From assembly GCA_900317375.1 (NCBI GenBank), contig ONGJ01000011.1, positions 26,722 to 90,721 of the forward strand: a DNA stretch of 64,000 nt, in the 5' to 3' direction. The stretch is from an uncultured Eubacteriales bacterium. GTDB taxonomy: Bacteria > Bacillota > Clostridia > Oscillospirales > Oscillospiraceae. Numbering within the stretch: position 1 is the stretch's first letter; the number at the start of each line of letters is the position of its first letter. Of this stretch, positions 6,197-55,600 are shown piece by piece. The position numbers and the translations under genes are program-made. The notes beneath the pieces were generated by a model. It saw only the letters and a program-made list of their open reading frames with translations. It was not told where the DNA came from and made no database searches.

Positions 6197-6208
6197 GAAG
6201 GAGACGAC

Positions 6209-7489: not shown

Positions 7490-7522
7490 ATTGACGCTTT
7501 TTGCAAAAAAGGGGGTGAGGAT

Positions 7523-8866
7523 GTGGAGAACGAGACTTTATATCGGGACAAGCCGGTCTGGACGGCGATCTGGAGCCTGGTGATTCCCTCTGTTCTGACC
7601 ATTCTGGTCATGGTCGTTTACAACCTGGCAGACATGTTTTTCATTGCCATGCTGGGTGACGACACTCAGGTCGCAGCCGTGGCGGTGGTCGGTCCTGTTT
7701 TCAGCGTGGCCAATGCAGTGGCGACGACCATCGGCGCGGGCGGCTGCACGCTGATCGCGCGCACCCTCGGCGCAGGGGAGCGGGAAAAGGCCTCGTCGTT
7801 GGCCAGCCTATGCGTCTGGACGGCACTTGGCTTCGGACTCGTCTTTGCCGTTCTTCTTTTGCTTTTCTCCACCCCTGCCCTGCATATCCTCGGCGCGACA
7901 GAAGATCTGCTAACTTATTCCGTCCGCTATCTGCGTATCCTCGCGATCGGATCGCCGCTGATGCTGTTTTCTGTCTCGACAGCGTCCATCGTCCGTGCCG
8001 AGGGTGTCATTATCCCCGGCATGATGAGCCACATGGCCGGGACGGTGACAAATCTGGTGTTGGACCCCTTGTTCATCCTGGCCCTTCATATGGGCGTCAG
8101 CGGCGCGGCACTGGCAACGGTGATCGGCAATTTGGCGGCTTCCCTACTGCTCGTCCGATCGATCCGCGGAAACTGTGCGGTCGTTCGGCTCTCTCCAGCC
8201 TGTGCGCGCGGCATGCTGCCCCGGCTCCCGTCTGTCCTGGCAACAGGCCTTCCCAACGGTGCGAGCAGCATCCTCTCGGGTTTGGCCTCCACCTTTTCCA
8301 ATCGGCTTCTACATAGCTACGGCTCCGGCGCGATCGCGGCCATGGCCGCCGCGGGGCGTTCGGTGATGGTGATCACCATGGTGCAGATGGGGATCTGTAT
8401 GGGTGTGTCGCCCCTGCTGTCCTACACTTACGGGGCGAAGGCCCGTGACCGGCTGCGTGAAACGCTGGGAAAGACCGCGCTGCTGAGCTTTTCTTTCGGC
8501 CTGCTCTCTGCGGTCGGTTGCTTCTTCGGACGCGTAGCGCTGCTAAAGCTTTTTTTACAGGATCCGACAAACCTTGCGCTCGGCGGCAGCCTCATGATCT
8601 GGCTCATCGCGGTCAGTCCGCTCCTCGGGTTCTACTATCTCAGCACCAACTTCCTGCAGGCAACGGGTCACGCCTTCCAGGCCACGCTGGCTTCCGTGTT
8701 GCGGCAGGGGCTTTTGCTGATCCCGCTGCTTTATCTGCTCCACGCATGGATGGGGCTGACGGGGATCGCCGCCGCGCACACAGCCGCCGATGCACTCTCC
8801 GTTGTGGCCGCGGTTTGTATGGCGTTCAGAGCATACAAGGAAACGAGACTTTTTTGCGAATTATAA
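7523..8866 (+). CDS. MATE family efflux transporter
   Basis: The 447-residue protein has about twelve hydrophobic helices and the MATE N-terminal pattern (IPSVLTILVMVVYNLADMFF, then GAGGCTLIARTLGAGE). The start is GTG at 7523 after GGGGGTGAGG; the ATG two bases upstream is in another frame. MATE proteins export drugs or small molecules with Na+ or H+. Its place between the hydrolase genes and the uronate genes is unusual. It could export a toxic aglycone freed from plant glycosides, or be an unrelated passenger; this is inference only. Confidence 0.9.
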   Translation: MENETLYRDKPVWTAIWSLVIPSVLTILVMVVYNLADMFFIAMLGDDTQVAAVAVVGPVFSVANAVATTIGAGGCTLIARTLGAGEREKASSLASLCVWTALGFGLVFAVLLLLFSTPALHILGATEDLLTYSVRYLRILAIGSPLMLFSVSTASIVRAEGVIIPGMMSHMAGTVTNLVLDPLFILALHMGVSGAALATVIGNLAASLLLVRSIRGNCAVVRLSPACARGMLPRLPSVLATGLPNGASSILSGLASTFSNRLLHSYGSGAIAAMAAAGRSVMVITMVQMGICMGVSPLLSYTYGAKARDRLRETLGKTALLSFSFGLLSAVGCFFGRVALLKLFLQDPTNLALGGSLMIWLIAVSPLLGFYYLSTNFLQATGHAFQATLASVLRQGLLLIPLLYLLHAWMGLTGIAAAHTAADALSVVAAVCMAFRAYKETRLFCEL

Positions 8867-8911
8867 TGTGATATAGAATATGTCGGTCTTCAGAAATAAG
8901 GAGGATATTCC

Positions 8912-9997
8912 ATGCCGATGCAAATGGGCTTTCGCTGGTACGGCGAAGGGAATGACAAAATCAAGCTGTCGGATATCCGGCAGATACCGGGGGTGAGCAC
9001 CATCGTCTGGGCGCTGCACGATAAGATGCCCGGCGAGATCTGGCAGCCCGAAGAGATCAAAAAGGTGATAGATCAGATTACCGCCGCGGGCTTCAACGGC
9101 GACGTAGTCGAAAGCGTGAACGTGCATGACGACATCAAAATCGGCCTGCCTTCAAGAGACGCTTACATCGACAACTACATCCAGACCATCCGCAACCTCG
9201 CCCCCTTCGGCGTGAAGGTCATCTGCTACAATTTCATGCCCATCTTCGACTGGACCCGCAGCGACCTGTTCCATCCCGTCGGCGACGGATCGACGGCGCT
9301 CTACTACCAGAAGGACATGATCCAGGACGACCCGAAGCAGATGGCCGATTATGTGATGAGCTTCACCGAGAAGTATCACATGACCTTCCCCGGCTGGGAG
9401 CCGGAGCGCATGGCGAAGCTTGACGAGCTGTTTGAGAAGTACAAGGATGTAACCAAAGAAAAGCTTTGGGCCAATTTCAAGTACTTCCTCGAAAGACTGA
9501 TGCCCGTGTGCCATGAGACCGGCATCAAAATGGCTGTTCACATGGACGATCCCCCCTGGGACATCTTCGGCCTGCCCCGTCTGCTCATCGACGCAGAAAG
9601 TATAGACCGCTTCCTGCAAATGGTGGACGACCCGTACAACTGCCTGACGCTCTGCTCCGGCAGCCTCAACGCCAACCCTTCAAATGACGTGGCCGCGATC
9701 GTCCGCAAACACGCCGACCGCATCGCCTTCGCGCATATCCGCAACGTCAAGCACTTTCCGAACGGCGACTTCTCCGAAGCCAGCCATCGGGACTGCGACG
9801 GCGAGACCGGCATCCTCGATATTATGCGTGCCTATCACTACGCCGGTTGGGAGGGCTATATCCGCCCCGATCATGGGCGGCACCTCTGGGACGAGAAGCC
9901 GGGCAATGTGCGCCCCGGTTACGGACTGTATGACCGCGCCCTCGGCATCATGTACATGCTGGGCGCCTGGGATATGATGGATAAGGAGAAAAACTGA
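8912..9997 (+). CDS. uxuA: Mannonate dehydratase
   Basis: The 361-residue protein is of normal UxuA length and begins MPMQMGFRWYGEGND, with MAVHMDDPPWDIFGLPR near residue 210 and the histidine- and acid-rich metal site HIRNVKHFPNGDFSEASH near 275. It dehydrates D-mannonate to 2-keto-3-deoxygluconate. A consensus AAGGAGG sits upstream. The 45-base gap after the MATE gene contains a TATAGAAT stretch that could be a minus-10 box, so a secondary promoter may start the uronate genes here. It is followed one base later by the SDR gene. Confidence 0.96.
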   Translation: MPMQMGFRWYGEGNDKIKLSDIRQIPGVSTIVWALHDKMPGEIWQPEEIKKVIDQITAAGFNGDVVESVNVHDDIKIGLPSRDAYIDNYIQTIRNLAPFGVKVICYNFMPIFDWTRSDLFHPVGDGSTALYYQKDMIQDDPKQMADYVMSFTEKYHMTFPGWEPERMAKLDELFEKYKDVTKEKLWANFKYFLERLMPVCHETGIKMAVHMDDPPWDIFGLPRLLIDAESIDRFLQMVDDPYNCLTLCSGSLNANPSNDVAAIVRKHADRIAFAHIRNVKHFPNGDFSEASHRDCDGETGILDIMRAYHYAGWEGYIRPDHGRHLWDEKPGNVRPGYGLYDRALGIMYMLGAWDMMDKEKN

Positions 9998-11504: not shown

Positions 11505-12602
11505 ATGGAACTGAATTTACGTCCGAGAGAAGAATGCCGTTTTGATGCTGTGAGCCTGGGGGAAATCATGCTGCGTCTGGACCCCGGCGAGGGGCGGATC
11601 CGCACGGCCCGCAGCTTCCGCGCCTGGGAGGGCGGCGGCGAGTACAACGTCATCCGCGGCCTTCATAAGTGCTTTGGCATGGACACCGCCGTCATCACCG
11701 CCTTTGCCGACAACGAAGTCGGCAGGCTGATGAAGGACTTCATCGAACAGGGCGGCGTCAGCACCGACCTGATCTACTGGAAGAAGACAGACGGTATCGG
11801 CCGCATCTGCCGCAACGGCATCAACTTCACCGAGCGAGGCTTCGGCATCCGGGGCGCCGTGGGCTGCTCCGACCGGGCCAACACCGCCATCTCCCAGGCC
11901 ACGCCCGAGGATTTTGACTTCGAGTACATCTTCGGCAAGCTGGGCGTGCGCTGGCTGCATACCGGCGGCATCTACGCGGCCCTCTCCGAGCAGAGCTGCA
12001 AGACCGTGATCGAGGCTTGCAAGATCGCCAAAAAGTACGGCACCGTCATCTCCTACGACCTCAACTACCGCCCCTCCATGTGGAGCGCCATCGGCGGGCT
12101 GGAGAAGGCGCGCGAGGTCAACCGCGAGGTGGCAAAGTATGTGGACGTGATGATCGGAAACGAGGAGGACTTTACCGCCTGCCTGGGCTTTGAGATCGAG
12201 GGCAACGATGAAAACCTCAAGGAGCTGAATATCGAGGGCTACAAGAAGATGATCGGCAAGGCCGCCGAGACTTACCCCAACTTCAAAGTCGTGGCAACTA
12301 CGCTCCGCACCGTCAAGACCGCCACCGTCAACGATTGGAAGGCCATCTGCTGGGCGGACGGGGAGATTTATCAGTCCAAGGAGTTTAACGGCCTGGAGAT
12401 CATGGACCGCGTGGGCGGCGGGGACTCCTTTGCCTCCGGTCTGGTCTACGGCCTGATGACCACGGGCGACGCGGAGAAGGCCGTCAACTACGGCGCGGCC
12501 CACGGCGCGCTGGCTATGACCACGCCGGGCGACACCTCCATGGCGTCTCTCAACGAGGTCGAGGCCATCATGGGCGGCGCGGGCGCAAGAGTGAAGAGGT
12601 AA
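11505..12602 (+). CDS. kdgK: 2-keto-3-deoxygluconate kinase (PfkB family)
   Basis: The ATG at 11505 gives 365 residues; an in-frame TTG 24 bases upstream has no better support. It is a PfkB sugar kinase with an N-terminal EIMLRLDPGEGR, a GGGEYNV substrate loop, and the C-terminal anion-hole motif VGGGDSFASG near residue 305. It phosphorylates KDG to KDPG, linking UxuA to Eda. It starts one base after the eda stop and is followed by uxaC after a four-base gap, which fits a single transcript. Confidence 0.93.
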   Translation: MELNLRPREECRFDAVSLGEIMLRLDPGEGRIRTARSFRAWEGGGEYNVIRGLHKCFGMDTAVITAFADNEVGRLMKDFIEQGGVSTDLIYWKKTDGIGRICRNGINFTERGFGIRGAVGCSDRANTAISQATPEDFDFEYIFGKLGVRWLHTGGIYAALSEQSCKTVIEACKIAKKYGTVISYDLNYRPSMWSAIGGLEKAREVNREVAKYVDVMIGNEEDFTACLGFEIEGNDENLKELNIEGYKKMIGKAAETYPNFKVVATTLRTVKTATVNDWKAICWADGEIYQSKEFNGLEIMDRVGGGDSFASGLVYGLMTTGDAEKAVNYGAAHGALAMTTPGDTSMASLNEVEAIMGGAGARVKR

Positions 12603-17398: not shown

Positions 17399-18844
17399 AT
17401 GGCTTCAATACTCAGTATACTCAAAAACATCATAAATCTCAATAGGGTTCATATAGAAAAACAGGAATATGTGACCACACCGACTCAACGTTTTGGCGAG
17501 ATCTACGAAGAGAAGCAACTTCATATAAGGCTGCGGCCGACTCGAAATTATCAGGATCGCTGTCCGGTATGTGGGAAGAAGTGCCCGGGATACGACTACA
17601 AGAACAATGAAGAGAGTTGGTGGAGAGCTTCCAATCTGAATGGAGTGCCGGTGTATCTCTTCTATCAGCGCCAGAGAATTGAGTGCAGAAAGCACGGCGT
17701 GAGAGCTGAGTATGTACCGTGGGCAGATGGAGACAGTCGCTTCACGGAAGCCTTCAACAATGATGTTGCCTGGATGGCATTACAGATGTCCAAGTTGGCT
17801 GTGTCTGTTCTAATGAAAATCAACTGGAGAACTGTTGGGAACTGCATCAAGACAGCGCATGACAGGATAGAGCCGGATGTCAGTGTACGGTTGCACGGGC
17901 TTCGGCGTATCTGCGTAGATGAAACCAGCTACCGCAAGGGACACTCCTACATTACCGTAGTCTATGACATGGACAGGAATCAGGTCGTCTGGGTACATGA
18001 GGATCACGGCCAGGAGATATTCGCGCAATTCTGCAAGTTGTTAACGGAGGAAGAAAGAACTCAGATTGAGATTGTAGCCGGCGACGGTGCCAGGTGGATT
18101 GATACGTGCACAAAGAAGTATTTCCCCAACGCCATACGATGTGTAGATATCTTCCATGTTGTCGAATGGGCAAACGAAGCGTTGGATGATGTTCGAACCA
18201 ATACCGCAGCCAAAGCACGGCGGGATTATTCCAGGAAGAAAGAGCAATTCAGGAAACTGGAAGCGGAACAGGAGCAACGCCGTACCGAGGCAGAGGAAGA
18301 ACTGGCTTCCATGTCAAAGAGGGGCCGCCCGAGCTGTCGGCGAAAAGAACTCGAGGCATTTCTGCAGGAGATGGAAGTATTTTCCCGCTTTGAGCAGTCT
18401 CAGCCAAAGAAGAAAGGTCGTCATCCAAAGGAGCAATTCTTTTCCGATCACCAGGAAATTTTGAATGATCTCGCGCAGCGGGCAAAAGACATCAAGGGCG
18501 CGAGATACGCTCTTGGGCACAAGCCGGAAAATCGTACGGAAGCACAGACAGAGCGGCTGAAACTGATCGAAAATTCATATCCTGACCTGTACAGGGCCTA
18601 CCAACTGAAAGAAACCCTGCGCCTCATTCTCCGTCTGAAAGACAGTATTCTCGCTGTCATAGAACTGGATCTGTGGATTGTCGACGCGTCCAAATGCGGG
18701 CTGAGACCAATGGAGGAATTGGCTGAGAAAATCAAACGGCACCGCGAAAACATCCTCAATTCCATTCGGTTTCAGGCCAACAGCGCCAAAAGCGAGTCAA
18801 CGAATACGACTATTATTAACTTGGCAATAAAATATCCGCAATAA
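17399..18844 (+). pseudogene. ISL3 family transposase, 5' fragment
   Basis: The frame encodes 481 residues, of which the first 472 are ISL3 transposase: the zinc ribbon CPVCGKKC..C..H near residues 58-105, a helix-turn-helix region, and the DDE core with RICVDETSYRKGH (Asp near 164) and EIVAGDGARW (Asp near 223). At 18815 the reading frame enters the inserted IS630 element and ends ten codons later. Joined to 19966-20183 it gives an intact protein of 544 residues, so loss of function is due to that insertion alone. Confidence 0.88.
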
Positions 18845-19963
18845 TCTATGTACATTTGAGCAAATCTGTAGTATAATAAGGGCATGGATACCATTGAGAA
18901 AACTGACTACAGAAAAGCTTCGCCTGAAGCCATTTATGAAGCGCGGAAAATCGTTATACGCATGTGGAAATCCAAAAAGATGGTAGCGGAGATTGTTAAA
19001 GCTACTGGCTTCTCCCAAGACACCGTGTATGTAACGATCCGTGCATTCAAAAAAGGCGGGATGAAAGCACTGAAACCAAAGGTGCGTGGCCGCAAAGTCG
19101 GTGAAAAACGCCACCTTTCGCCAGAACAGGAATCTGAGATCTTCAACATGCTGGTAGATCACAATCCTGAGCAATACAAGATCAAAGGCTGCATGTGGAC
19201 ACGTGACAGCGTAAGAGAACTGATACTCCAGAAATATGGGCTAGACATGCCCCTGCGTACTATAGGAGAGTATCTCAGGCGTTGGGGACTGACTGTGCAG
19301 CGTCCTGCGAAGCAGGAAAGGAATCAAAAGCCGGAGCAGGTAGAGGCATGGTTGAATGAACAATATCCGGAGATTCATACTGCAGCAAAGGCCGAAAATG
19401 CTGAGATTTTCTGGGGCGATGAAACAGCTGTGCAGAATGTGGCCAACTATGCCCGAGGATATGCTCCAAAGGGACAAACCCCTGTGGTAAAGGTCCAGGC
19501 CAAGAAAATGCATATCAATATGATCAGTGCAATCAGCAACCAGGGACGACTGCATTTTATGCTGTATTCCGATGCTATCAACTCGGACCGATTAATTGAA
19601 TTCATGCAGGCCCTTATCAAGACTGCTGCAGGAAGAAAAGTATTTTTCATTCTCGACAATTTGAAAGTTCACCACAGTAAAAAGGTCTCAGAATGGGTAG
19701 ATGACCATAAGAGTGAGATAGCTTTGTTCCATCTGCCGCCATACTCTCCGGAGTACAATCCCGATGAGTATCTCAACAATGATCTGAAACACAATATTGG
19801 TACACAGGCCATGGCAAAAGATGTCAAGGAACTGGAAGACCACACAAATTCATTCATGAAGCATCTTGCCGAAGATACAGATCATGTAAAGTCATATTTT
19901 GATCACCCGGCTATAAAAACATATAAGTTGGATCGAATTGGGGATATTTAATTGCCGGATTAA
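18816..19963 (+). mobile_element. IS630-type insertion sequence, 1148 bp
   Basis: The element starts TTAACTTGGCAATAAAATAT and ends with the imperfect inverse (reverse complement TTAATCCGGCAATTAAATAT). It is flanked by TA on both sides (18814-18815 and 19964-19965), the TA duplication expected of IS630/Tc1 elements. Removing it plus one TA restores the ISL3 transposase as ..TNTTIKTMIKMARGF.., which fixes the borders precisely. The single transposase gene appears intact. Confidence 0.9.
18884..19951 (+). CDS. IS630 family transposase
   Basis: The 355-residue protein has an N-terminal helix-turn-helix (residues 20-60, KMVAEIVKATGFSQDTVYVT) and a second winged-helix part. Its DDE core has WGDETAV near 180, FFILDNLKVHH near 265 and PPYSPEYNPDEYLN near 290, the expected D-D-E spacing. 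No frameshift is seen. Its stop codon lies inside the right terminal repeat. It is probably still able to move, and its A/T-richer codon use differs from the GC-rich host genes, which fits recent arrival. Confidence 0.93.
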   Translation: MDTIEKTDYRKASPEAIYEARKIVIRMWKSKKMVAEIVKATGFSQDTVYVTIRAFKKGGMKALKPKVRGRKVGEKRHLSPEQESEIFNMLVDHNPEQYKIKGCMWTRDSVRELILQKYGLDMPLRTIGEYLRRWGLTVQRPAKQERNQKPEQVEAWLNEQYPEIHTAAKAENAEIFWGDETAVQNVANYARGYAPKGQTPVVKVQAKKMHINMISAISNQGRLHFMLYSDAINSDRLIEFMQALIKTAAGRKVFFILDNLKVHHSKKVSEWVDDHKSEIALFHLPPYSPEYNPDEYLNNDLKHNIGTQAMAKDVKELEDHTNSFMKHLAEDTDHVKSYFDHPAIKTYKLDRIGDI

Positions 19964-33800: not shown

Positions 33801-34030
33801 GATAAAAAAATAAGCCTCCGTCCGGAATAATAGGACGAAAGCAGACTTCCGCGGTACCACCTATCTTCGGCACGCAGCCGTGCCGCCGCTCATACCGGAC
33901 TTAACGCGCCCGCGACGCCGGGGATTGGCCGGAGCTCCCGGGCGAACCAAACAGCCCTTTCCGAGGAGGCTTTCAGCCGGCGGCCTCCACTCTCTGGCGG
34001 GTACGGAACTGTTATTTTCCCGTTCACAGC
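33801..34030 (-). promoter_or_regulatory. T-box leader of pheST (Phe-specific)
   Basis: The minus-strand leader has a Stem I AGAGAG region, a candidate TTC (Phe) specifier at 33944-33946, the T-box core AGGTGGTACCGCG (33850-33862) and a terminator with stem 33814-33823/33833-33842 followed by TTATTTTTTTAT. Uncharged tRNA-Phe would pair its acceptor end with the T-box and allow read-through into pheS. A TTGCAA-17-TAATCT promoter lies at 34037-34065. This explains most of the 356-base gap between pheS and the divergent HD gene. Confidence 0.92.
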
Positions 34031-34073
34031 GCAGACAGATTATCACAGAACGCACGGTTTTGCAAGAGGCGAA

Positions 34074-40899: not shown

Positions 40900-42153
40900 T
40901 TGAACGCCGCCTCGATGGAGCGCGGCGAGCGTTCTGACGAACGGTCCATGGAGGAGTTGAGCGCCCTGGCCGAAACCGCCGGCGCCGAGGTTGTGGCTGA
41001 GCTGATTCAGACCCGTGCCGCGCCCGACCCGCGCAGCTTTATCGGCGACGGCAAGGTTCAGGAGCTGAAGGATCTGATTGAAGCAAACAGCTGCGACCTC
41101 GCCGTGTTCGACAACGAGCTCACCCCGTCGCAGATGCGCGTGCTGTCTGAGGATCTCGGCGTGCGGGTTCTGGACCGCTCGGGTCTGATTCTCGATATCT
41201 TTGCTCAGCGTGCACGCAGCCGTGAGGGGAAACTGCAGGTTGAGCTGGCGCAGTATCAGTACCTGCTGCCTCGTCTGACGGGCATGTGGACACACCTGGT
41301 ACGCCAGACGGCTTCGGGCGGCTCGTCGCCCATCGGGACGCGCGGCCCCGGTGAAACCCAACTGGAGACGGACCGCCGTCATATCCGCCGGAAGATCCGG
41401 AATCTGGAAGAGAGTCTGAAGGATGTTCGCCGCGTACGGGATACCCAGCGCCGTCTGCGTGAGAAGAATTCCTTCCCCGTGGTCGCACTGATCGGCTATA
41501 CCAACGCGGGAAAATCGACCCTGCTCAACTGTCTGACCGGATCGGACATTCCGGCCAATGACCGTCTCTTCGACACGCTGGACACCACGACGCGGCGCCT
41601 GAAGCTGAACGAGAGGCAGGAGGTTCTGCTCTCGGATACGGTCGGCTTTATCCGCAAGCTTCCGACCCATCTGGTCGAGGCATTCAAGGCAACCCTGGAG
41701 GAGCTGAAGTACGCTGACATTCTGCTGCACGTGATTGATCTGTCAAATCCGGAATGGGATGTGCAGGCCGAGGTTGTCGACACGCTGGTACGGCAGCTGG
41801 GTGCCGAAAAGACACCCTGCATCCGTGTTTTCAACAAGTGTGACCGTTATTTCGGTATTCTGCCTCACGGCGAGGACACGGTCTGTGTCTCGGCGAAGAG
41901 CGGCGAGGGCTGCGGCCGGCTGGTTGAGAAAATCGCAGAGATGCTCTCCGGCAGGCTGCGGGAGACGGAGCTGGAGTTTCCCTGGTCAGAGGCCGGGCTG
42001 GTGGACGGGCTGAAGCAGAGCGGGGCACTTCTGGATCTTCAGTACGAGGAAGACGGCATCCGTGTGCGCGCTGTGCTGGACGAGGAAAACTTCGGAAGAC
42101 TGAAGGCCTGGATTCCCGGTTTTGAGGAGCCGAAAGAGGATTGGGATCAATGA
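40900..42153 (+). CDS. hflX: GTPase HflX
   Basis: The protein has the HflX N-terminal domain (ETAGAEVV..FIGDGKV), the coiled linker with GPGETQLETDRR, and the G domain with GYTNAGKSTLL, DTVGFI and NKCD. It rescues or splits stalled ribosomes. The given start, TTG at 40900, is the first conventional one. The frame stays open upstream and reads VETTEKHRERAVLAGL, which is family-like, so translation probably begins at a non-AUG codon near 40846-40852, after GGAAAGG. It heads an operon with yigZ, dgt, dnaG and rpoD. Confidence 0.93.
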   Translation: MNAASMERGERSDERSMEELSALAETAGAEVVAELIQTRAAPDPRSFIGDGKVQELKDLIEANSCDLAVFDNELTPSQMRVLSEDLGVRVLDRSGLILDIFAQRARSREGKLQVELAQYQYLLPRLTGMWTHLVRQTASGGSSPIGTRGPGETQLETDRRHIRRKIRNLEESLKDVRRVRDTQRRLREKNSFPVVALIGYTNAGKSTLLNCLTGSDIPANDRLFDTLDTTTRRLKLNERQEVLLSDTVGFIRKLPTHLVEAFKATLEELKYADILLHVIDLSNPEWDVQAEVVDTLVRQLGAEKTPCIRVFNKCDRYFGILPHGEDTVCVSAKSGEGCGRLVEKIAEMLSGRLRETELEFPWSEAGLVDGLKQSGALLDLQYEEDGIRVRAVLDEENFGRLKAWIPGFEEPKEDWDQ

Positions 42154-47441: not shown

Positions 47442-47786
47442 TCAGCGGTCCGGCAGGCCGAAGAGAGCGACCCAAATAACCGCAAGCTGGAGCACCAGGA
47501 TCAGGGGCATGCCCCAGCGGAAGGCAGCCTTCCGGGTTTTGTGGTGAAAGACGGCCATCCCGGCCATGGCCCCGATGCTGCCGCCCAGAATTGCCGCGAT
47601 AAAAAGCGTTTTTTCGGGAATGCGAGGCCTCGGCGCTTTTTCCCGTTCCGAGGTCTGCTTTTTTCTGCCGCGGCCCCGGGAACGCTGCCAGGCCTCATGC
47701 TGCTTTGCGCGCTTCTTGTCAATGCCGAACAGCACAAAGGTCACCAGGTTCACCAGCACCGCATAGCCGACAAAATACCAGATCAT
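47442..47786 (-). CDS. DUF1294 membrane protein
   Basis: The 114-residue protein begins MIWYFVGYAVLVNLVTFVLF, then the family core GIDKKRA and RIPEKTLFIAAILGGSIGAMAG, HHKT and a last hydrophobic helix. Three membrane segments. Function unknown; it overlaps the aro fusion gene by four bases and is probably translated with it, but DUF1294 proteins have no known link to aromatic synthesis. Confidence 0.88.
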   Translation of the reverse strand: MIWYFVGYAVLVNLVTFVLFGIDKKRAKQHEAWQRSRGRGRKKQTSEREKAPRPRIPEKTLFIAAILGGSIGAMAGMAVFHHKTRKAAFRWGMPLILVLQLAVIWVALFGLPDR

Positions 47787-49276
47787 AGTTTTGCCAGGAT
47801 GTCGTTGATCGTATCTCCAACAGCAGCATCGTTGCTGACCGCAACGTCCGCAAAGCGCCGGTACATCGGTCCGCGTACGGCTTCCATGGCATGCAGGTCC
47901 GCCCCCTGCGAGAGAGGCCGCCCTTCCCGGGCCAGGCTGTCAGCATCCCGCTCCAGCAGGACGATAATGCCGTTCTGGTGCAGCAGGGGGTAGTTTTCCT
48001 CCCGCGTGACGCAGCCTCCGCCGGTCGAGATGACCGCAGCCGAGCGTTTCCCCAGTTCTCTCAGAACCTCGGTCTCACGTCTCCGGAAGCCCTCTTCCCC
48101 TTCCCGGCGGAAGATTTCCGGAATGGTCAACCCCGCCTGCTTTTCTATCTCTTCGTCCGCCTCAAGATATGGGCGGTTCATTTTTTCAGCCAGAAGCTTT
48201 CCGACCGTGCTTTTGCCCGAGCCGGGCATTCCGATCAGGATCACGTTCTGCATTTCGGATGCGAGCAGAGCCGTAATCCGTTCGGTCTCCCGGTCGGGGA
48301 TGGTTTTTCCCTGAAAGATCTCGCTCGCACGCTTTGCCTGGGCAACCAGCATGCTGAGGCCTCCGGCATGCGGAATACCGAGCGTCTCCGCCTGCAGCAG
48401 CAGGGCTGTCCGGGCGGGGTTGTAAACCACGTCAAGAACTGCCTCCAGCTTCGGCAGGTCACGCAGGTCAACCGCCTGGGCGCCGTTGTTCGGATACATG
48501 CCCAAGGGTGTTGCATTTACCAGCAGAGAGGCGTCCCGATGGCGGTCAAGATTGGAATAGTTGTCCCTTCCGCTGCGCGAGAGGGTGATCACCTCGGCGC
48601 CGAGGCTTTTCAGAACCGCACAGACCGTTGCCGAAGCACCGCCGGTTCCGCAGACCAGGGCCTTTTTCCCCGCAGGGTCAAAGCCTGTCTTTCCGAGCAT
48701 GTGGCGAAAGCCGTAAGCATCTGTATTGTCGCCGAAAATGCTGCCGTCCGGACGGCGCAGCAGGGTGTTCACGCTGCCGATGGCGGCGGCGGTTTCGGAG
48801 AGCTCATCACAGAGGGGAATCACGGTTTTCTTGTATGGGATGGTTACATTCAGTCCGTGCCATTGTCCGCTGCGGACAAAGCCCACCACTTCTTCAGGCG
48901 CTTTTTCATAGAGCCGGTATTCATAATCGCCCAGCTCTGCATGGATCTGCGGAGAATAGCTGTGGCCCAGCGTTTCGCCCAGCAGGCCGCATCTCATGGT
49001 GTTCTGCGGCTGCGCCTCCAGTGTTTTCTCCTGCTGCGCGCGGGAGAGGGCCATAATCTCTGTAAACAGCGCCCTGACCTCAGCCTGATATTCCCCCGAG
49101 CTCCGGGCACTCAGCGTCTCGAGTTTCTCCGCTTCTCTGCCCGCATCCAGCACCGGGATTCCGTTTTGTTTCTTCCATATGCCGATCTCCCGGACGACGT
49201 TCATCCGTTCCTCAAAAAGCTGAAGAATCTCGGCATCGATCCGGTCCAGCTGTTTTCTGTAGTCTGCCAAATTCAT
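47783..49276 (-). CDS. Trifunctional chorismate mutase / shikimate dehydrogenase / shikimate kinase fusion
   Basis: The 497-residue protein has three domains. Residues 1-85 are an AroQ-type chorismate mutase (YRKQLDRIDAEILQLFEERM). Residues 94-335 are shikimate dehydrogenase with HSYSPQIH, IPYKK (Lys149), GDNTDAYG (Asp186), GTGGASAT and NATPLGM. Residues 343-497 are shikimate kinase with Walker A GMPGSGKST (349-357), LEADEEIE and STGGG. The domains join two steps of chorismate synthesis with the first step after chorismate towards Phe/Tyr. Each looks complete. It lies in the aro operon after aroC. Confidence 0.93.
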   Translation of the reverse strand: MNLADYRKQLDRIDAEILQLFEERMNVVREIGIWKKQNGIPVLDAGREAEKLETLSARSSGEYQAEVRALFTEIMALSRAQQEKTLEAQPQNTMRCGLLGETLGHSYSPQIHAELGDYEYRLYEKAPEEVVGFVRSGQWHGLNVTIPYKKTVIPLCDELSETAAAIGSVNTLLRRPDGSIFGDNTDAYGFRHMLGKTGFDPAGKKALVCGTGGASATVCAVLKSLGAEVITLSRSGRDNYSNLDRHRDASLLVNATPLGMYPNNGAQAVDLRDLPKLEAVLDVVYNPARTALLLQAETLGIPHAGGLSMLVAQAKRASEIFQGKTIPDRETERITALLASEMQNVILIGMPGSGKSTVGKLLAEKMNRPYLEADEEIEKQAGLTIPEIFRREGEEGFRRRETEVLRELGKRSAAVISTGGGCVTREENYPLLHQNGIIVLLERDADSLAREGRPLSQGADLHAMEAVRGPMYRRFADVAVSNDAAVGDTINDILAKL

Positions 49277-49279
49277 CGC

Positions 49280-50341
49280 TTATCCCTCCGGAAGAAGATC
49301 AAAAAGTACAATTGCGGCAGCGGCTTCTGCGACAGGTACCGCCCGCGGAACGATGCAGGGATCGTGACGGCCGCGGATCTGCAGGGTCTGGGTCTTCATG
49401 GTTTCCAGATTCACGCTCTGCTGCTCCATCGCAATGGACGGCGTCGGTTTGACTGCGAGGCGGAAGACAATCGGCATGCCGTTCGTGATGCCGCCGAGAA
49501 TGCCGCCCGCGTGGTTGGTCACCGTCGCGATCTGTCCTTCCCTGCCGATGCAGAAGGGGTCATTGTTCTCGCTGCCGCGCAGAGACGCTGCGGCAAAGCC
49601 CGCACCAAACTCGACACCCTTAACCGCCGGAATCGAAAACAGCATCTGGGAAAGCCGGCTTTCAAGTCCGCCAAAAAAGGGATCCCCGACACCGCCGGGA
49701 AAGCCGGTGATCATGCATTCGATGACGCCGCCGACGGAATCGCCCTCGGCCTTTGCTGTCCGGATGGCTTCTGTCATTTTCTCAGCTGCTCCGTCGTCCG
49801 AGACCGGGAAGGCCTTCTCCGATACCGGCCCGTCAAAGGCACTGTCATCCCGGACGGAGCCGATCTGAACGATCCGTGCCGCAACGGAAATGCCGCGGCG
49901 CTCAAGCTCCTGCAGCAGCACGCCGCCCGCGATGCAGAGCGGTGCCGTCAGGCGTCCGGAAAAGTGACCGCCCCCGGAAGCATCCTGAAACCCGTGATAG
50001 CGAAGCTGGGCAGTGAAATCGGCATGTCCCGGCCGGGGCAGGGTCTGCAGATCTGCATAGTCCTTCTTCCGCACATTGGTATTGCGGATGATCGCCGTCA
50101 GCGGTGCCCCGCAGGTCAGCCCGTCCTTCAGGCCGCAGAGGAACTCGGGTATGTCCTCCTCCCGACGTGCGGTGGACCATTCGCTCCGGCCCGGTGCTCG
50201 GCGGTCCAGAAAGCGCTGCAGCAGATCCGGGTCCACAGCCATGCCGGCCGGCAGGCCGTCCAGCGTCATGCCGATCGCTTCCGCATGGCTCTGCCCAAAT
50301 ATGCTCAGTCGGATACGCTTTCCGATCCAGATACTTGACAT
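49280..50341 (-). CDS. aroC: Chorismate synthase
   Basis: The 353-residue protein starts MSSIWIGKRIRLSIFGQSHA, with GRSEWSTARREEDIP, PRPGHADF, the ASGGGHFSGR active-site segment near residue 128 and GRHDPCIVPRAVPVAEA near the end. It makes chorismate from EPSP using reduced flavin. Its first 37 bases overlap the aroA 3' end. Confidence 0.97.
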   Translation of the reverse strand: MSSIWIGKRIRLSIFGQSHAEAIGMTLDGLPAGMAVDPDLLQRFLDRRAPGRSEWSTARREEDIPEFLCGLKDGLTCGAPLTAIIRNTNVRKKDYADLQTLPRPGHADFTAQLRYHGFQDASGGGHFSGRLTAPLCIAGGVLLQELERRGISVAARIVQIGSVRDDSAFDGPVSEKAFPVSDDGAAEKMTEAIRTAKAEGDSVGGVIECMITGFPGGVGDPFFGGLESRLSQMLFSIPAVKGVEFGAGFAAASLRGSENNDPFCIGREGQIATVTNHAGGILGGITNGMPIVFRLAVKPTPSIAMEQQSVNLETMKTQTLQIRGRHDPCIVPRAVPVAEAAAAIVLFDLLPEG

Positions 50342-51612
50342 GTTCTGCTCCTTTCATCCGCCAGGTTCTCCAGGTCCTTCCAGAAATCCGGGTAGGATTT
50401 TTCGACGCATTCGGGATCGCTTATGATCACGGGCTCCCGGCAGAGCGCTGCGGCCACTGCCGCGCTCATGGCGATGCGGTGGTCACGAAAGCTGTCAGCG
50501 TTTCCCCCGCGGAGCGCTCCACACCCCCGAATCACGAGGCCGTCCTCCTTCTCGTCGACCGCACCGCCCAGGTCCGCAATCAGCTGCGCCGTGCTGCGCA
50601 GACGGTCCGATTCTTTCATGCGCAGGCGGGCGGCGTTTTTGATCACGCTCTCCCCCTCAGCGGCACAGGCCAGCACACTGAGCACCGGAACCAGGTCGGG
50701 CACGCCGGCAGCATCCAGAACAAAGGGACGTCTCTTACCGGCCCTTACCGTGACGGCATCGCCGTGCCAGTTCACGTCTGCGCCGAAGGAGAGAAGCGTG
50801 TCCAGCACAGCCCGGTCGCCCTGCGGCGAATCCGGCCGAAGCCCCCGAACCGTGATCCCGTGTTCCGACAGGGCGCCAAGGCAGAGGAAAAAGGCGGCAC
50901 CGGACCAGTCCCCCTCCGCGGTCAGTTCCCGCGGCAGGCGGCAGGTCTGCCCGCCGGGTATCCGCCACTCATGTTCTGCCCTTGCGAAGACAATACCGGC
51001 GCTTTCCAGCACGCCCTCCGTCATAAGGATATAGGCGGCTGATTCCAGGCTTCCTTCCGCCCGCAGCACGCTGTCTTCTTCCAGCAGCGGCAGCGCAAAC
51101 AGCAGGCCGCTGAAGTACTGCGATGAGATATTGCCGGGCAGGCAATAGATGCCCGCTGAAAGCCGGCCGCCGGCATGCAGGCGGCCGCCGTCCCGGGCAA
51201 TGATCATGCCGTGCCGCCTCAGTTCGTCCTCAAAGAGGTCCATCGGCCTCTGCGGCAGGCGCCCTTCCATATGAAAGCATCCGTCAAGGCCCAAAGCACC
51301 GAGAACCGGAAGCAGAAAACGAAGCGTGGAGCCGCTCTCTCCGCAGGGCAGGACCGCCTCTCCGTTCGGTGTCCGCGGCCTGTCTGGAGGGACGGCTGAC
51401 AGGCGGCTTTCGGTGCAGCCGATTTCCGCTCCCATGGCCCGCAGGCAGTCCGCCGTAGCCAGGATGTCCCTGGAAAGGCCCCGCAGCCGGATGCTCACAG
51501 GGCTTTCCCCGAGAGCCGCCGCGATCAGAAGGCGGTGCACGTGCGATTTGGACGAGGGCACCGTCACTGTGCCGCAGCGCGCCCCGGGGGATACGGTCCG
51601 CGGGCCGCTCAT
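50305..51612 (-). CDS. aroA: 3-phosphoshikimate 1-carboxyvinyltransferase (EPSP synthase)
   Basis: The 435-residue protein has the two-domain EPSPS layout with PSSKSHVHRLLIAAAL, LPCGESGSTLRFLLPV (family LxxxxSGTxxR region; Ser replaces Thr), LPGNISSQYFSGLLFA and RMKESDRL near 360, then DHRIAMS. It joins PEP to shikimate-3-phosphate. The SGST rather than SGTA sequence is typical of class II-like enzymes. Its ATG overlaps the ancestral aroB stop as ATGA. Confidence 0.95.
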   Translation of the reverse strand: MSGPRTVSPGARCGTVTVPSSKSHVHRLLIAAALGESPVSIRLRGLSRDILATADCLRAMGAEIGCTESRLSAVPPDRPRTPNGEAVLPCGESGSTLRFLLPVLGALGLDGCFHMEGRLPQRPMDLFEDELRRHGMIIARDGGRLHAGGRLSAGIYCLPGNISSQYFSGLLFALPLLEEDSVLRAEGSLESAAYILMTEGVLESAGIVFARAEHEWRIPGGQTCRLPRELTAEGDWSGAAFFLCLGALSEHGITVRGLRPDSPQGDRAVLDTLLSFGADVNWHGDAVTVRAGKRRPFVLDAAGVPDLVPVLSVLACAAEGESVIKNAARLRMKESDRLRSTAQLIADLGGAVDEKEDGLVIRGCGALRGGNADSFRDHRIAMSAAVAAALCREPVIISDPECVEKSYPDFWKDLENLADERSRTCQVSGSESVSD

Positions 51613-51651: not shown

Positions 51652-52677
51652 TCATCCTTTGAAACCGCAGCCGATGCTTCTCGGCAGCACAAGGTTCATC
51701 TTCCCGTCAGCGATCTTTTTATCCAGCATCATAATGGAGAACAGCTCTTCCGCGTCGTACTCCGTCTCAGTCGGAAGGCCGAAGTGCCGCAGAAGACTGA
51801 GAATCGCATCAAAACTCACCGGATCCAGCGTGCCGGTTGAGACGGCAGCCCGGCAGGCCATGGCGGTGCCGACCGCAACGGCTTCCCCGTGCAGCAGCGT
51901 ATAGCCGCTTCTCTGCTCAATGGCATGTCCAAAGCTGTGCCCCAGGTTCAGCAGACGCCGCCGTCCGACATCCCGCTCATCCTCCTCCACGATCTCGGCC
52001 TTCAGCCGTACGCAGGCCTCGATGATCTCCGGCAGGGCATCGAAAAGCCGGGCAGGCTCGGTGTGCTGCAGCAGGTCGAACAGATCAGGGTCACCGATCA
52101 CGGCGTCCTTGATCACCTCCGCCATCCCCGCCCGCAGTTCGCGCTCCGGGATTGTTAAAAGTGTGTCAGTGTCGCACAGGACCAGCTGCGGCTGGTAAAA
52201 GGCTCCGACCTGGTTTTTGGCCGCCGGTAGATTCACCGCTGTCTTTCCTCCGACGGACGAGTCAACCGCGGATAAAAGCGTCGTGGGAACCTGCACGAAA
52301 CGGATGCCGCGCTGATACGTCGCGGCCGCGAATCCGGTCAGATCGCCGGTCACACCACCGCCAAGAGCGACCAGGCAGTCCGAGCGGCTGAACTGTCGAT
52401 CGGTCAGCTCGTTCATCAGCTCGCCGTAGCAGGCAAGGCTCTTGGTGCTCTCCCCCGCCGGAAAGACAACGGCATCTGCCTGGAACCTGGCCTTCCGGAG
52501 GCTCGTCAGCGCGGTCTGCCCGTAGAGCGGAAAAACGTTCTCGCCCGACACGACGACGCATCTGCCGCCCATGCCGAGCCTTTGCATCTCTTCTCCGAGC
52601 GTCCTGATCAGGCCGGAGCCGACTTTCACCTCATAGCATCCGGAGGGCGTATTCACCGGAATCACAATGTTTTTCAC
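51652..52677 (-). CDS. aroB: 3-dehydroquinate synthase, C-terminus frameshifted
   Basis: The GTG at 52677 overlaps the tyrA stop by one base (TAGTG). The protein has VVSGENVF, FPAGESTKS, ALGGGVTGDLTGFAAATYQRG near residue 98, SVGGKTAVN, and the zinc ligands in LNLGHSFGHA. It cyclises DAHP to dehydroquinate. The frame ends in LPRSIGCGFKG at 51652. The other frame continues as VSKDELRQLLKVGCGETV and stops at 51609, forming ATGA with aroA. About 17 terminal residues are thus shifted out of frame, by a 2-base loss or 1-base gain near 51660. Confidence 0.9.
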   Translation of the reverse strand: MKNIVIPVNTPSGCYEVKVGSGLIRTLGEEMQRLGMGGRCVVVSGENVFPLYGQTALTSLRKARFQADAVVFPAGESTKSLACYGELMNELTDRQFSRSDCLVALGGGVTGDLTGFAAATYQRGIRFVQVPTTLLSAVDSSVGGKTAVNLPAAKNQVGAFYQPQLVLCDTDTLLTIPERELRAGMAEVIKDAVIGDPDLFDLLQHTEPARLFDALPEIIEACVRLKAEIVEEDERDVGRRRLLNLGHSFGHAIEQRSGYTLLHGEAVAVGTAMACRAAVSTGTLDPVSFDAILSLLRHFGLPTETEYDAEELFSIMMLDKKIADGKMNLVLPRSIGCGFKG

Positions 52678-53510
52678 TAGCCGTCTACCTCTTCCTTCAT
52701 GCGCTTGCCCTCCTCCAGGAGTGCCGTCAGGGTTTCCCGATCCCCGTTCTCCATTGCGTCGCGGTAAGCCGTAAGGTTTTCGATCAAGGTGTCGACCTCG
52801 CGGATCAGACAGTCGCGGTTTTCCAAAAACAGCTCTGCCCACATCGGCGCGTTCAGCCAGGCGACTCTGGTCAGGTCCTTGTAGCTGCCGGCCGAAAATC
52901 CGTGGTGCAGACGCGCTGTCGGGCTCTTGACATAGGCATTCGAGACAATATGGGCCAGCTGCGAGGTGAAAGCAATCATCTCGTCGTGCTTATCGGCTGT
53001 CGTGACCGAAAACCGGCTGAAGCCTGCCGGTTTCAAAAGGTTCTTGACCTTCTCCAGCAGGTAGATATCGTCAAAATCGGGCGGCACAATCACCATCGGG
53101 GCGTTCTTATAGAGACTGGCCCGGGCATACTTGTAGCCGGAAAACTGGGTGCCGGCCATCGGGTGCCCGCCCAGATAAGTAAAGCCGTGTTCCTCGGCGA
53201 TCGGAAAGCAGGCCTCGCAAACGACGCGCTTGGTCCCGCAGCAGTCGATCACCACCGGCTTATCACCGAAATAGGGGGCGAACTCCGTAATGCTCTGAAT
53301 CGCAGCCTCCGGATAGATCGTCACAAGCACCAGGTCACAGGTTCCCACATTCTGCTCTGTCAGTTCGCCGTCCACATCGCCTGAGAGGCGGGCGAAATCC
53401 AGCACGCTTTTTGAGCGGTTCCTGGCGAGGACCTCCCATCCGGCTTCGTGGTAAGCCTTGGCAAAGCTGCCGCCGATCAGGCCCAGACCGACAACTCCTA
53501 CCCGGCTCAT
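52677..53510 (-). CDS. tyrA: Prephenate dehydrogenase
   Basis: The 277-residue protein has the Rossmann motif GLGLIGGSFAKAY (residues 7-19), CGTKR, LGGHPMAGT (near 114) and the helical C-terminal dimerisation part. It oxidises prephenate to hydroxyphenylpyruvate for tyrosine. There is no ACT domain, so allosteric feedback by tyrosine through that domain is not expected; the tyrosine leader upstream of the operon could provide the control instead. It overlaps the DAHP synthase gene by four bases. Confidence 0.92.
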   Translation of the reverse strand: MSRVGVVGLGLIGGSFAKAYHEAGWEVLARNRSKSVLDFARLSGDVDGELTEQNVGTCDLVLVTIYPEAAIQSITEFAPYFGDKPVVIDCCGTKRVVCEACFPIAEEHGFTYLGGHPMAGTQFSGYKYARASLYKNAPMVIVPPDFDDIYLLEKVKNLLKPAGFSRFSVTTADKHDEMIAFTSQLAHIVSNAYVKSPTARLHHGFSAGSYKDLTRVAWLNAPMWAELFLENRDCLIREVDTLIENLTAYRDAMENGDRETLTALLEEGKRMKEEVDG

Positions 53511-54508
53511 GCAATCACCCCGCGGATTGAGCGAACCTTTTCCGCAAGTGCCGAGAATTCCTCCGGCAGGAGCGACTGCGCCCCGTCACAGAGGGCGTGA
53601 ATCGGGTCATTATGCACCTCGATAATCAGTCCGTCCGCACCGGCGGCCGTTGCCGCCAGCGCCATCGGCGGCACAAGCTTTGCGATGCCGGTGGCGTGGC
53701 TCGGGTCTACGATAACCGGCAGATGCGTCAGCTGATGCAGCATCGGCACCGCCGCAAGATCGAGGGTGTTGCGCGTATAGTCCGAGAAGGTCCGGATGCC
53801 GCGCTCGCAGAGAATCACGCGCTCGTTGCCGTTGGCCATGATGTACTCGGCGCTCATGAGCAGTTCCTTCAGGGTGTTGGCCAGTCCGCGTTTGAGCAGA
53901 ATGGGCTTATCCAGCGTACCCAGTTCGCGCAGGAGGTCAAAATTCTGCATGTTGCGTGCGCCGATCTGAATAACGTCCACATCCTCAAAGAGAGGCAGGT
54001 CGTTGATGTTCATGAGCTCCGTCACGATGGGCAGGCCCGTTTCCTTTCGGGCGATGCGCAGGAGCTCGAGCCCCTCTGCCTTAAGCCCGGCAAAATCATA
54101 GGGTGAGGTTCTCGGTTTGAAGGCGCCGCCGCGCAGCATGTCAGCCCCCGCAGCCTTCACCGCCCTGGCCACCGCGACGATCTGTTCTTCCGACTCGACC
54201 GAGCAGGGGCCGGCAATGACGACGAAATGCCCGCCGCCGACCTTCACATCGCCGATCTCGACGATCATATCCTCTGGGTGGAACTTCCGGTTGCAGCATT
54301 TAAAGGGTTCGGTTACGCGCTTTACCGAATCAACGATATCAAGGCTGCTGACCAGATCGATATCGATGCCGGACACATCACCGATCAAACCGATAACCGT
54401 CTGAAACTCACCGTTCGAGATATGCAGACGCAGGCCCTGTCCCTCCAGCCAGTTCATCAGCTGGATCTTCTTTTCTTCCGGAACCCCGTGTTTTAATACG
54501 ACAATCAT
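53507..54508 (-). CDS. aroF: 3-deoxy-7-phosphoheptulonate synthase (DAHP synthase)
   Basis: The 333-residue protein has an N-terminal ferredoxin-like regulatory domain (residues 1-70, [20 protein letters not shown]) and a class I-beta DAHPS barrel with [29 protein letters not shown] and DPSHATG. This is the Thermotoga-like layout, in which the N-domain mediates feedback by aromatic amino acids. It is the first structural gene after the attenuator. The symbol follows common use for this class. Confidence 0.94.
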
Positions 54509-54600
54509 ACTGTCAAACCTCCTGGAAACGCAAAAGCCGCACAGGATAACCTGTGCGGCAAACGTTCTGAATCAGCCTCGATTTGCGCCACAAATTATCC
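54509..54600 (-). terminator. Attenuator of the aro operon: terminator and antiterminator
   Basis: Terminator: GCCGCACAGG, four-base loop, CCTGTGCGGC (54536-54559), then TTTTGCG. Antiterminator: TTTGTGGCGCAAA, just after the leader stop, can pair with TTTGCCGCACA, which holds the left terminator arm. Protector: CGCCGCA inside the leader reading frame can pair with TGTGGCG. These are the three exclusive pairings of classical ribosome-dependent attenuation. Confidence 0.8.
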
Positions 54601-54657
54601 TTACCGAAGAAACCCGGTATAGGAATAAGCATATGCGGCGTAGCGAGTGACTTTCAT
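54601..54657 (-). CDS. Tyrosine-rich leader peptide of the aro operon
   Basis: The 18-codon frame encodes MKVTRYAAYAYSYTGFLR: four Tyr codons (positions 6, 9, 11, 13) and one Phe. It has an excellent ribosome site (GGAGGAAGCT before ATG) and starts about 25 bases after the predicted transcript start. The frame ends eight bases before the antiterminator arm. By analogy to enteric phe/trp/his leaders, ribosome stalling at the Tyr codons when Tyr-tRNA is scarce would favour the antiterminator and switch on the aro operon. It is too short for standard gene callers. Confidence 0.85.
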   Translation of the reverse strand: MKVTRYAAYAYSYTGFLR

Positions 54658-54684
54658 AGCTTCCTCCAACAAGAAACTGGAAGT

Positions 54685-54713
54685 AATATAGCCGAAACCG
54701 CCGGGATTGTCAA
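54685..54713 (-). promoter_or_regulatory. Promoter of the aro operon
   Basis: TTGACA, 17 bases, TATATT on the minus strand. Confidence 0.85.
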
Positions 54714-54720
54714 GGCTTTT

Positions 54721-55400: not shown

Positions 55401-55592
55401 AAAAAAAATACCTGAAGATTTCTCTTCAGGCGCACAGAATGCAGGACAAGGAAACGACGAAATAAGATTGTTCGGATCTTCTTCCATCCAGACTCTACTG
55501 TCGGTTCCGGATTCGCACCGGATCATGCCTTACGGCTCGCGGACTCAGCTTGCGCCATCACCGCCGGTCGGGAATTACACCCTGCCCTGAAG
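55401..55592 (-). promoter_or_regulatory. FMN riboswitch with terminator, upstream of ribU
   Basis: The RFN core runs 55592-55478 on the minus strand: CTTCAGGGCAGGGTGTAATT, CCCGACCGGCGGTGATGG, GAGTCCGCGAGCC, GATCCGGTGCGAATCCGG and GTCTGGATGGAAGAAG. The expression platform is CCTGAAG / CTTCAGG followed by TATTTTTTTT (55430-55401). The stem repeats the CTTCAGG of the riboswitch 5' end, so it can compete with it. FMN should terminate ribU transcription. Confidence 0.96.
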
Positions 55593-55600
55593 ATGTTTGT

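Follow-up and report, generated by a model that had tools for sequence, protein, structure and literature searches.

The leader of the aro operon in a 64,000-nucleotide stretch of DNA from an uncultured Eubacteriales bacterium (the window) is very probably a classic ribosome-mediated transcription attenuator, sensing charged tRNA-Tyr (the main signal in the window) and tRNA-Phe. The attenuation logic of the original prediction is supported in silico by a short aromatic frame in 74 of 79 upstream regions, by covarying hairpins, and by folding with ribosomes at defined positions. We infer that the leader acts in the cell with charged tRNA as the signal.

The 5′ part of the leader contains the following elements, the ribosome site and frame being read from the sequence.

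54685–54713, minus strand: promoter-like site, with −35 TTGACA at 54713–54708, a 17-nt spacer, and −10 TATATT at 54690–54685
54663–54667, minus strand: Shine-Dalgarno (SD) GGAGG of the leader frame
54601–54657, minus strand: leader frame MKVTRYAAYAYSYTGFLR, stop included, with four Tyr and one Phe

The SD-led frame has 18 codons, starts with the ATG at 54657, and ends with the stop codon at 54603–54601 on the minus strand. Tyr occupies codons 6, 9, 11, and 13, and Phe codon 16. The predicted 18-codon frame, its ribosome site, and its four Tyr and one Phe are all found between the promoter and the DAHP synthase gene. The promoter had been called perfect; it is a good site, but matches the consensus in 11 of 12 letters.

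The RNA downstream can form mutually exclusive pairings.

54586–54640, minus strand: protector hairpin (1:2) between leader codons and segment 2, with outer pairs 54640–54634/54592–54586
54582–54601, minus strand: segment 2, the 5′ arm of the antiterminator, beginning at the stop codon and containing TTTGTG
54543–54562, minus strand: segment 3, the 3′ arm of the antiterminator, overlapping the 5′ arm and loop of the terminator (from pairing and alignment)
54532–54559, minus strand: intrinsic terminator with T run, arms 54559–54550/54545–54536

In the outer arms of the protector, CGCCGCA (54640–54634) pairs with TGTGGCG (54592–54586). The main helix of the antiterminator joins AGGATAATTTGTG (54601–54589) to CACAGGTTATCCT (54555–54543) by 13 contiguous pairs, and a second helix pairs GCAAA with TTTGC. 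The antiterminator of the original prediction is therefore present, but its real helix is longer than described. The predicted terminator is present too, with a T run that is interrupted (TTTT GCG TTT). The RNA from 54690 to 54530 folds better than 200 of 200 shuffles, with a z score of −4.5.

These elements suggest how the switch would work. When Tyr and Phe are plentiful, the ribosome would reach the stop codon at 54603–54601 and cover the start of segment 2. The antiterminator could then not form fully, and the terminator would halt RNA polymerase some 25 nt short of the DAHP synthase start. Under a shortage of Tyr (or Phe), the ribosome would wait on an aromatic codon within segment 1 and break the protector. 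Segment 2 would then take the 5′ arm of the terminator, and the DAHPS-tyrA-aroB-aroA-aroC-CM/aroE/aroK operon would be transcribed. Without translation, the protector would form, making termination the default.

Conservation was assessed in the best 80 of at least 584 confirmed DAHP synthase relatives, from one scan of genome contigs. The analysis covered 79 regions, the window and 78 loci, as two of the best 80 lacked upstream DNA and were left out. The titles of these loci are mostly Oscillospiraceae, Ruminococcaceae, Lachnospiraceae, and other Clostridia MAGs, and one is a named cultured strain, Eubacterium pyruvativorans i6 (L043). An automatic filter (SD, 10–45 codons, at least four Tyr plus Phe, density of at least 0.2) applied to the best-scoring frame was passed by 70 of the 79 upstream regions, compared with 189 of 1580 shuffled regions and, for 330-nt stretches taken from elsewhere in these loci, 70 of 2898. 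When any passing frame was counted, the numbers were 71 of 79 regions and 73 of 2898 other stretches. The strictest filter (at least six Tyr plus Phe, density of at least 0.3) retained 47 of 79 regions and 3 of 2898 other stretches. After inspection, a short aromatic frame was recognized at the leader position in 74 of these 79 regions, and was missing at L008, L038, L054, L063, and L075. An SD-led translatable frame between promoter and first gene is thus a feature of the window and of most related loci in this set. A promoter-like site with at least 10 of 12 consensus letters lies at 45 of 72 leaders of the same set, versus 1 of 72 shuffled stretches.

The 74 leader peptides are enriched in the end products of the pathway, by 9.1-fold for Tyr and 5.1-fold for Phe relative to the operon proteins of the window. 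Other residues in the same comparison reach 2.0-fold for Asn, 1.4-fold for Trp, and 0.26-fold for His. Together, the 74 leaders from the best-80 set hold 288 Tyr and 299 Phe, with medians of 4 and 4; at least two Tyr and at least two Phe occur in 69 of them, and Trp in nine. The 4:1 ratio of Tyr to Phe in the window is unusual among them. Since both residues are enriched and 69 of 74 leaders carry at least two of each, the conserved signal of the putative sensor is Tyr plus Phe, with the window as a Tyr-tilted case. The "tyrosine" attenuator was therefore right as to its Tyr codons and wrong as to Tyr alone. Two loci titled Lentisphaerae MAGs (L037 and L073) also have a DAHP synthase with an aromatic leader, with a different terminator loop, TGGCAACA; they may be mislabelled bins or cases of transfer.

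The leader was also sought in a phylum sample of 159 genomes, 142 of which have a DAHP synthase relative at E ≤ 1e-60. Eighty of the listed upstream regions were examined, three of them under 330 nt. Eight of the 80 (L082–L084, L086, L088, L092, L093, and L096) have a frame convincing by eye, and 20, 11, or 5 pass the filter from its loose to its strict form. The scarcity of frames in this sample suggests that the switch is a trait of the window's DAHP synthase lineage and of a few others; as judged from these sequences, it is not shared by DAHP synthases across the phylum at large.

The hairpins are conserved as well. A terminator of −10 kcal/mol or better lies before the first gene in 69 of the 74 leaders of the best-80 set, and the scan found no strong terminator in L012, L013, L045, L069, and L076. 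The duplex between the 5′ part of the terminator and upstream RNA, corresponding to the antiterminator, beats shuffles at p ≤ 0.05 in 55 of 69 leaders; that of L043, the Eubacterium pyruvativorans strain, did not. The protector duplex does so in 29 of 69 leaders and is clear in the window. In alignment A1, composed of 22 close relatives including the window, 94.0% of antiterminator cells are paired and six pairs have changed on both sides, one of them being A-U in 7, G-C in 6, and U-A in 3 sequences. Six slid registers of the antiterminator reach no more than 49.4% pairing. For the terminator, 91.8% of cells are paired and four pairs have changed on both sides, one being G-C in 10, C-G in 8, and U-A in 2 sequences. 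The structures were drawn from the window, itself a row of A1, which favours them somewhat; the two-sided changes are independent of that. TTTG is invariant in A1 and TGTG in A2, a second group of 18 rows, and TTTGTG of segment 2 spans both with few exceptions. Such near invariance is in keeping with an arm that has to form pairs with two different partners.

The covariation check proposed with the original prediction thus gave compensatory changes in both the antiterminator and the terminator, and a frame kept in 74 of 79 regions. Loss of the Tyr-rich frame or of the alternative pairing among homologs, named as grounds for refutation, was looked for too; most homologs keep these features, and five loci are without the frame. 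These results bear on the idea that the leader is merely a constitutive terminator beside a chance Tyr-rich frame. An 18-codon frame with four Tyr is not rare by itself, given that the loose filter passes 189 of 1580 shuffled upstreams, but chance would have to account for a frame in 74 of 79 regions of the best-80 set and for two-sided pair changes in both alternative hairpins, while most distant DAHP synthase upstreams lack a convincing frame (8 of 80 by eye). The chance of this explanation being right is negligible.

Attenuation by a translating ribosome was further modelled by placing a ribosome on the window transcript, with a footprint reaching 11 nt past the first base of the A-site codon. 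Without a ribosome, the protector (12.4 pairs) and the terminator (10 pairs) form and the antiterminator does not. In the finished transcript, about 16 antiterminator pairs and 1.3 terminator pairs form when the ribosome sits on Tyr9 or Tyr13, and 1.6 and 9.9, respectively, when it is at the stop codon; the terminator forms for positions from Leu17 through the stop. With the ribosome on Tyr6 or Tyr11, the antiterminator lasts until the 3′ arm of the terminator is made, and the finished transcript reverts to the terminator. With the ribosome at the stop codon of the nascent transcript, 8.4 antiterminator pairs persist until the same arm is made. A footprint of +14 nt moves the pattern by one codon, and the results for Tyr11 and Phe16 depend on the footprint.

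The same approach was extended to nascent transcripts of 69 leaders, counting pairs between the 5′ half of the terminator (arm and loop) and upstream RNA. The mean is 14.4 pairs at the best aromatic codon, 5.4 at the stop, and 8.8 without a ribosome, versus 10.3, 6.5, and 9.0 in shuffled versions. The value at the best aromatic codon beats at least 95% of the leader's own 20 shuffles in 48 of 69 cases. In these simulations, a ribosome on a control codon frees segment 2 and one at the stop masks it: a drop of at least three pairs from aromatic codon to stop is seen in 66 of 69 leaders, versus 52% of shuffles. At least three more pairs on an aromatic codon than without a ribosome are found in 46 of 69 leaders versus 27% of shuffles, and the aromatic codon is separated from both the stop and the ribosome-free state in 45 of 69 versus 19.7%. 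For the finished transcript at equilibrium, the terminator falls below half at an aromatic codon in 18 of 69 leaders (7.7% of 690 shuffled), and the number remains 18 of 69 (7.2% of 690 shuffled) when the leader must in addition terminate both with the ribosome at the stop and with none. As so few leaders switch at equilibrium, most would need kinetic trapping. On our reading, the switch is kinetic in most species and thermodynamic in the window.

The leader precedes the following genes.

53507–54508, minus strand: DAHP synthase, the first gene of the operon (PF00793 and an N-terminal ferredoxin-like PF18152)
52677–53510, minus strand: tyrA (Pfam PDH_N and PDH_C, no ACT match)
51652–52842, minus strand: aroB (start codon uncertain)
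50305–51612, minus strand: aroA (EPSP synthase)
49280–50341, minus strand: aroC (chorismate synthase)
47783–49276, minus strand: chorismate mutase–shikimate dehydrogenase–shikimate kinase fusion (a single 497-aa frame)

The predicted aro operon context is confirmed by these downstream genes, which presumably form a single transcript. In a tally of downstream aro genes that left out the aroE/aroK part of the window operon, the first aro gene from the window's set met after the leader is tyrA in 70 of 73 loci of the best-80 set. TyrA was rightly said to lack an ACT domain, given its Pfam matches. The argument drawn from it, that the leader may carry the tyrosine feedback, is weak, given the ferredoxin-like regulatory domain PF18152 on DAHP synthase. 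The ferredoxin-like domain of DAHP synthase from Thermotoga maritima is described as binding Phe or Tyr and restricting the active site (PMC5526877). Elsewhere in the window, an FMN riboswitch at 55472–55598 on the minus strand precedes a gene for an ECF-type riboflavin-like transporter, which is the gene immediately upstream of the aro leader, and two adjacent long frames (481 and 355 aa) at 17399–19951 are transposase-like by eye.

T-boxes occur in the same genome, and one lies in the window.

33828–34036, minus strand: T-box before pheST (Rfam match of 76.8 bits against a cut-off of 93)

The contrast originally drawn with this T-box holds, as the element is real (E 8.1e-17), its score being below the Rfam gathering cut-off. 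Another T-box (G000:C81:8636–8885, 85.6 bits, E 4.5e-19, below the gathering cut-off) lies just upstream of the trp genes. The aro leader might accordingly be a T-box or another riboswitch binding a tRNA or ligand, with an incidental short frame. In favour of such a riboswitch, this genome has T-boxes ahead of pheST and trpDCFBA, and an Rfam scan of 20 DAHP synthase upstreams from the phylum sample gave T-boxes in two. However, the Rfam scan of the aro leader gave no T-box even at E ≤ 10, and the five T-box matches of the genome all lie elsewhere; a T-box at this site was rejected. The sole full-length match to a regulatory family is RF04312, the "trpB motif", with 21.3 bits (cut-off 59) and E 0.78, and it rests mainly on the terminator. 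Membership in RF04312 was rejected on this score, and no match above the cut-off occurs in any of 16 genomes of the window's group. A riboswitch would also leave the enrichment of aromatic codons unexplained, and this alternative is very improbable.

The T-box contrast extends to the Trp branch. No match to PF00425, which includes the chorismate-using enzymes TrpE and PabB, was found in the genome of the window. PF00425 is also missing in 43 of 50 leader-bearing genomes, whose completeness is not given, and in the phylum sample it is present in 104 of 159 genomes and missing in 55. From its absence in the window's genome and most leader-bearing genomes, Tyr and Phe look like the main end products of the operon. 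The genome has trpD, trpC, trpF, and trpA, and also trpB as read from the sequence. These genes lie in the order trpD-trpC-trpF-trpB-trpA at 4854–9347 of locus L167 (G000:C81:4000–18000), with trpB split over two frames in the assembly. The branch would start from anthranilate acquired elsewhere and looks like anthranilate salvage.

The idea that Trp codons in the leader follow the presence of TrpE was rejected, as the distribution in the tested set is opposite. The leaders of the seven PF00425-positive genomes (L010, L016, L020, L021, L035, L037, and L043) lack Trp, and eight Trp-bearing leaders (L011–L014, L027, L031, L040, and L046) come from genomes without a PF00425 match; the ninth, L062, lies outside the tested set. 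Before the two prephenate dehydratase genes and the TyrS-like gene of the genome, no aromatic leader was seen and no Rfam match was obtained at E ≤ 0.01. A second AroG-type DAHP synthase-like frame, recognized by eye, follows a prephenate dehydratase gene at L163 (G000:C81 near 40950–41474), and no aromatic leader was seen there.

The aro leader is not a one-off. A covariance model, R1, was built from alignment A1; it refinds the aro leader by construction, and locates further copies in the same genome and in others. The second place in the window's genome, with E 3.5e-5, precedes an operon for a TrpX-like transporter.

L174, oriented 1313–1436 (G000:C125 near 11951–12027), minus strand: second aromatic leader attenuator, found with R1

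This copy has a Tyr/Phe frame (MRTLSFAAAYVYSYYFM), a segment 2, and a terminator. In simulation, a ribosome at its stop codon masks segment 2 poorly (11.7 versus 13.0). The gene that follows encodes a substrate-binding protein (PF04392) with TrpX as its best NCBIfam match, at 213 bits against a cut-off of 390, and the operon also has a permease frame (PF02653).

R1 matches at E ≤ 0.01 occur in 53 of 147 genomes of the order, many of them terminator look-alikes. Of 23 R1 loci examined (L173–L195), 12 carry an aromatic frame ahead of a suitable gene (L173, L174, L177–L184, L186, and L188). The other 11 (L175, L176, L185, L187, and L189–L195) were judged to be terminator look-alikes or reverse-strand matches to the same place; six of these were reread in three frames and showed no aromatic frame. 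Five of the 12 precede DAHP synthase (L181, L183, L184, L186, and L188). Another five, in other genomes, precede TrpB-like genes (L177–L180 and L182), called by NCBIfam for L177 and L182 and read from the sequence for L178, L179, and L180. All five of the latter frames contain Trp (WW or KYW), compared with 9 of 74 aro leaders (Fisher p 9e-5, with independence overstated, as three of the five come from one genus). Alignment A3 of six R1 leaders shows a common core. We lean slightly towards reading these leaders as one homologous attenuator RNA, spread over the aromatic regulon of a large group of gut and rumen Clostridia and retuned for each gene by codon swaps: Tyr plus Phe for aro and the TrpX-like transporter, frames bearing Trp for TrpB-like genes. 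The core of this family would consist of an ATTTGTG-N-TGCA segment 2 and a GCNGCACAGGTTANCCTGTGCNGC-like terminator.

Changed codons also bear on whether the peptide itself might be the effector, as a nascent-chain arrest peptide or a functional small protein, instead of a codon sensor. Aromatic-rich C-terminal halves recur (YYYYFT and FYFGYYYFF), making a nascent-chain effect conceivable. But peptide length and most residues other than Tyr and Phe vary, Tyr and Phe replace each other, and Trp is present in all five frames seen ahead of TrpB-like genes. Codon sensing thus fits better than a fixed arrest motif, and an effector peptide has little chance of being the explanation.

The enteric trp, his, phe, ilv, and thr operons are controlled by classic leader-peptide attenuators. 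The aro leader is likened to them by layout: a short frame rich in the relevant amino acids, a protector, an antiterminator, a terminator, and a stop codon placed to mask segment 2. Unlike them, it mixes Tyr and Phe and serves a DAHPS-led operon in Clostridia. Closer in gene context are two candidate Phe/Tyr uORFs before shikimate genes, reported from a scan of five bacterial genomes including Clostridium novyi (PMC6429828). They share the shikimate-gene context and the Phe/Tyr frame with the aro leader and may be related to it; the comparison uses a description that, in the part consulted, names no lineage, gene, or alternative pairing. One of them is possibly a member of the same family. The uORFC-13-1 motif, with 24 representatives in Acholeplasma and environmental sequences, lies before aroF (PMC8632094). 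It resembles the aro leader in its uORF, adjacent terminator, DAHP synthase gene, and proposed Phe sensing, but differs in having at least one Phe and, in the part of the account consulted, no described Tyr run.

Ribosome-mediated attenuation has likewise been predicted for His leaders in Eubacteriales, Erysipelotrichales, and the Bacillus cereus group (PMC9413887) and for those of hisZ/hisS* in bacilli (PMC2965389), which differ from the aro leader by their His codons and his genes. A Leu-rich attenuator is reported from S. aureus (PMC5794164). The RF04312 motif, known from Firmicutes and Fusobacteria, has a terminator and precedes trpB and amino acid transporter genes; its authors leave attenuation possible (PMC11109978), and its low score and absence above the cut-off in the window's group set the aro leader apart from it. 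The mechanism is thus already known, and Phe/Tyr frames before shikimate genes have, as far as the consulted parts of these sources go, already been sketched in print. No published description of the aro-leader family itself was recognized among titles and opening lines of abstracts, a scope with subscription literature mostly outside it.

Where Clostridia control amino acid genes by attenuation, T-boxes are usually held responsible. A conserved Tyr/Phe switch in front of the chorismate pathway, working by codon reading, would represent a second wiring for gut and rumen Clostridia. It would explain an aro operon that answers to Tyr and Phe while the trp genes sit behind a T-box. If the family reading is true, a retunable Tyr/Phe sensor does for this branch of metabolism what T-boxes do at other sites in the genome, and related leaders differing in the amino acid they read would offer a natural series for studying how attenuator specificity changes.
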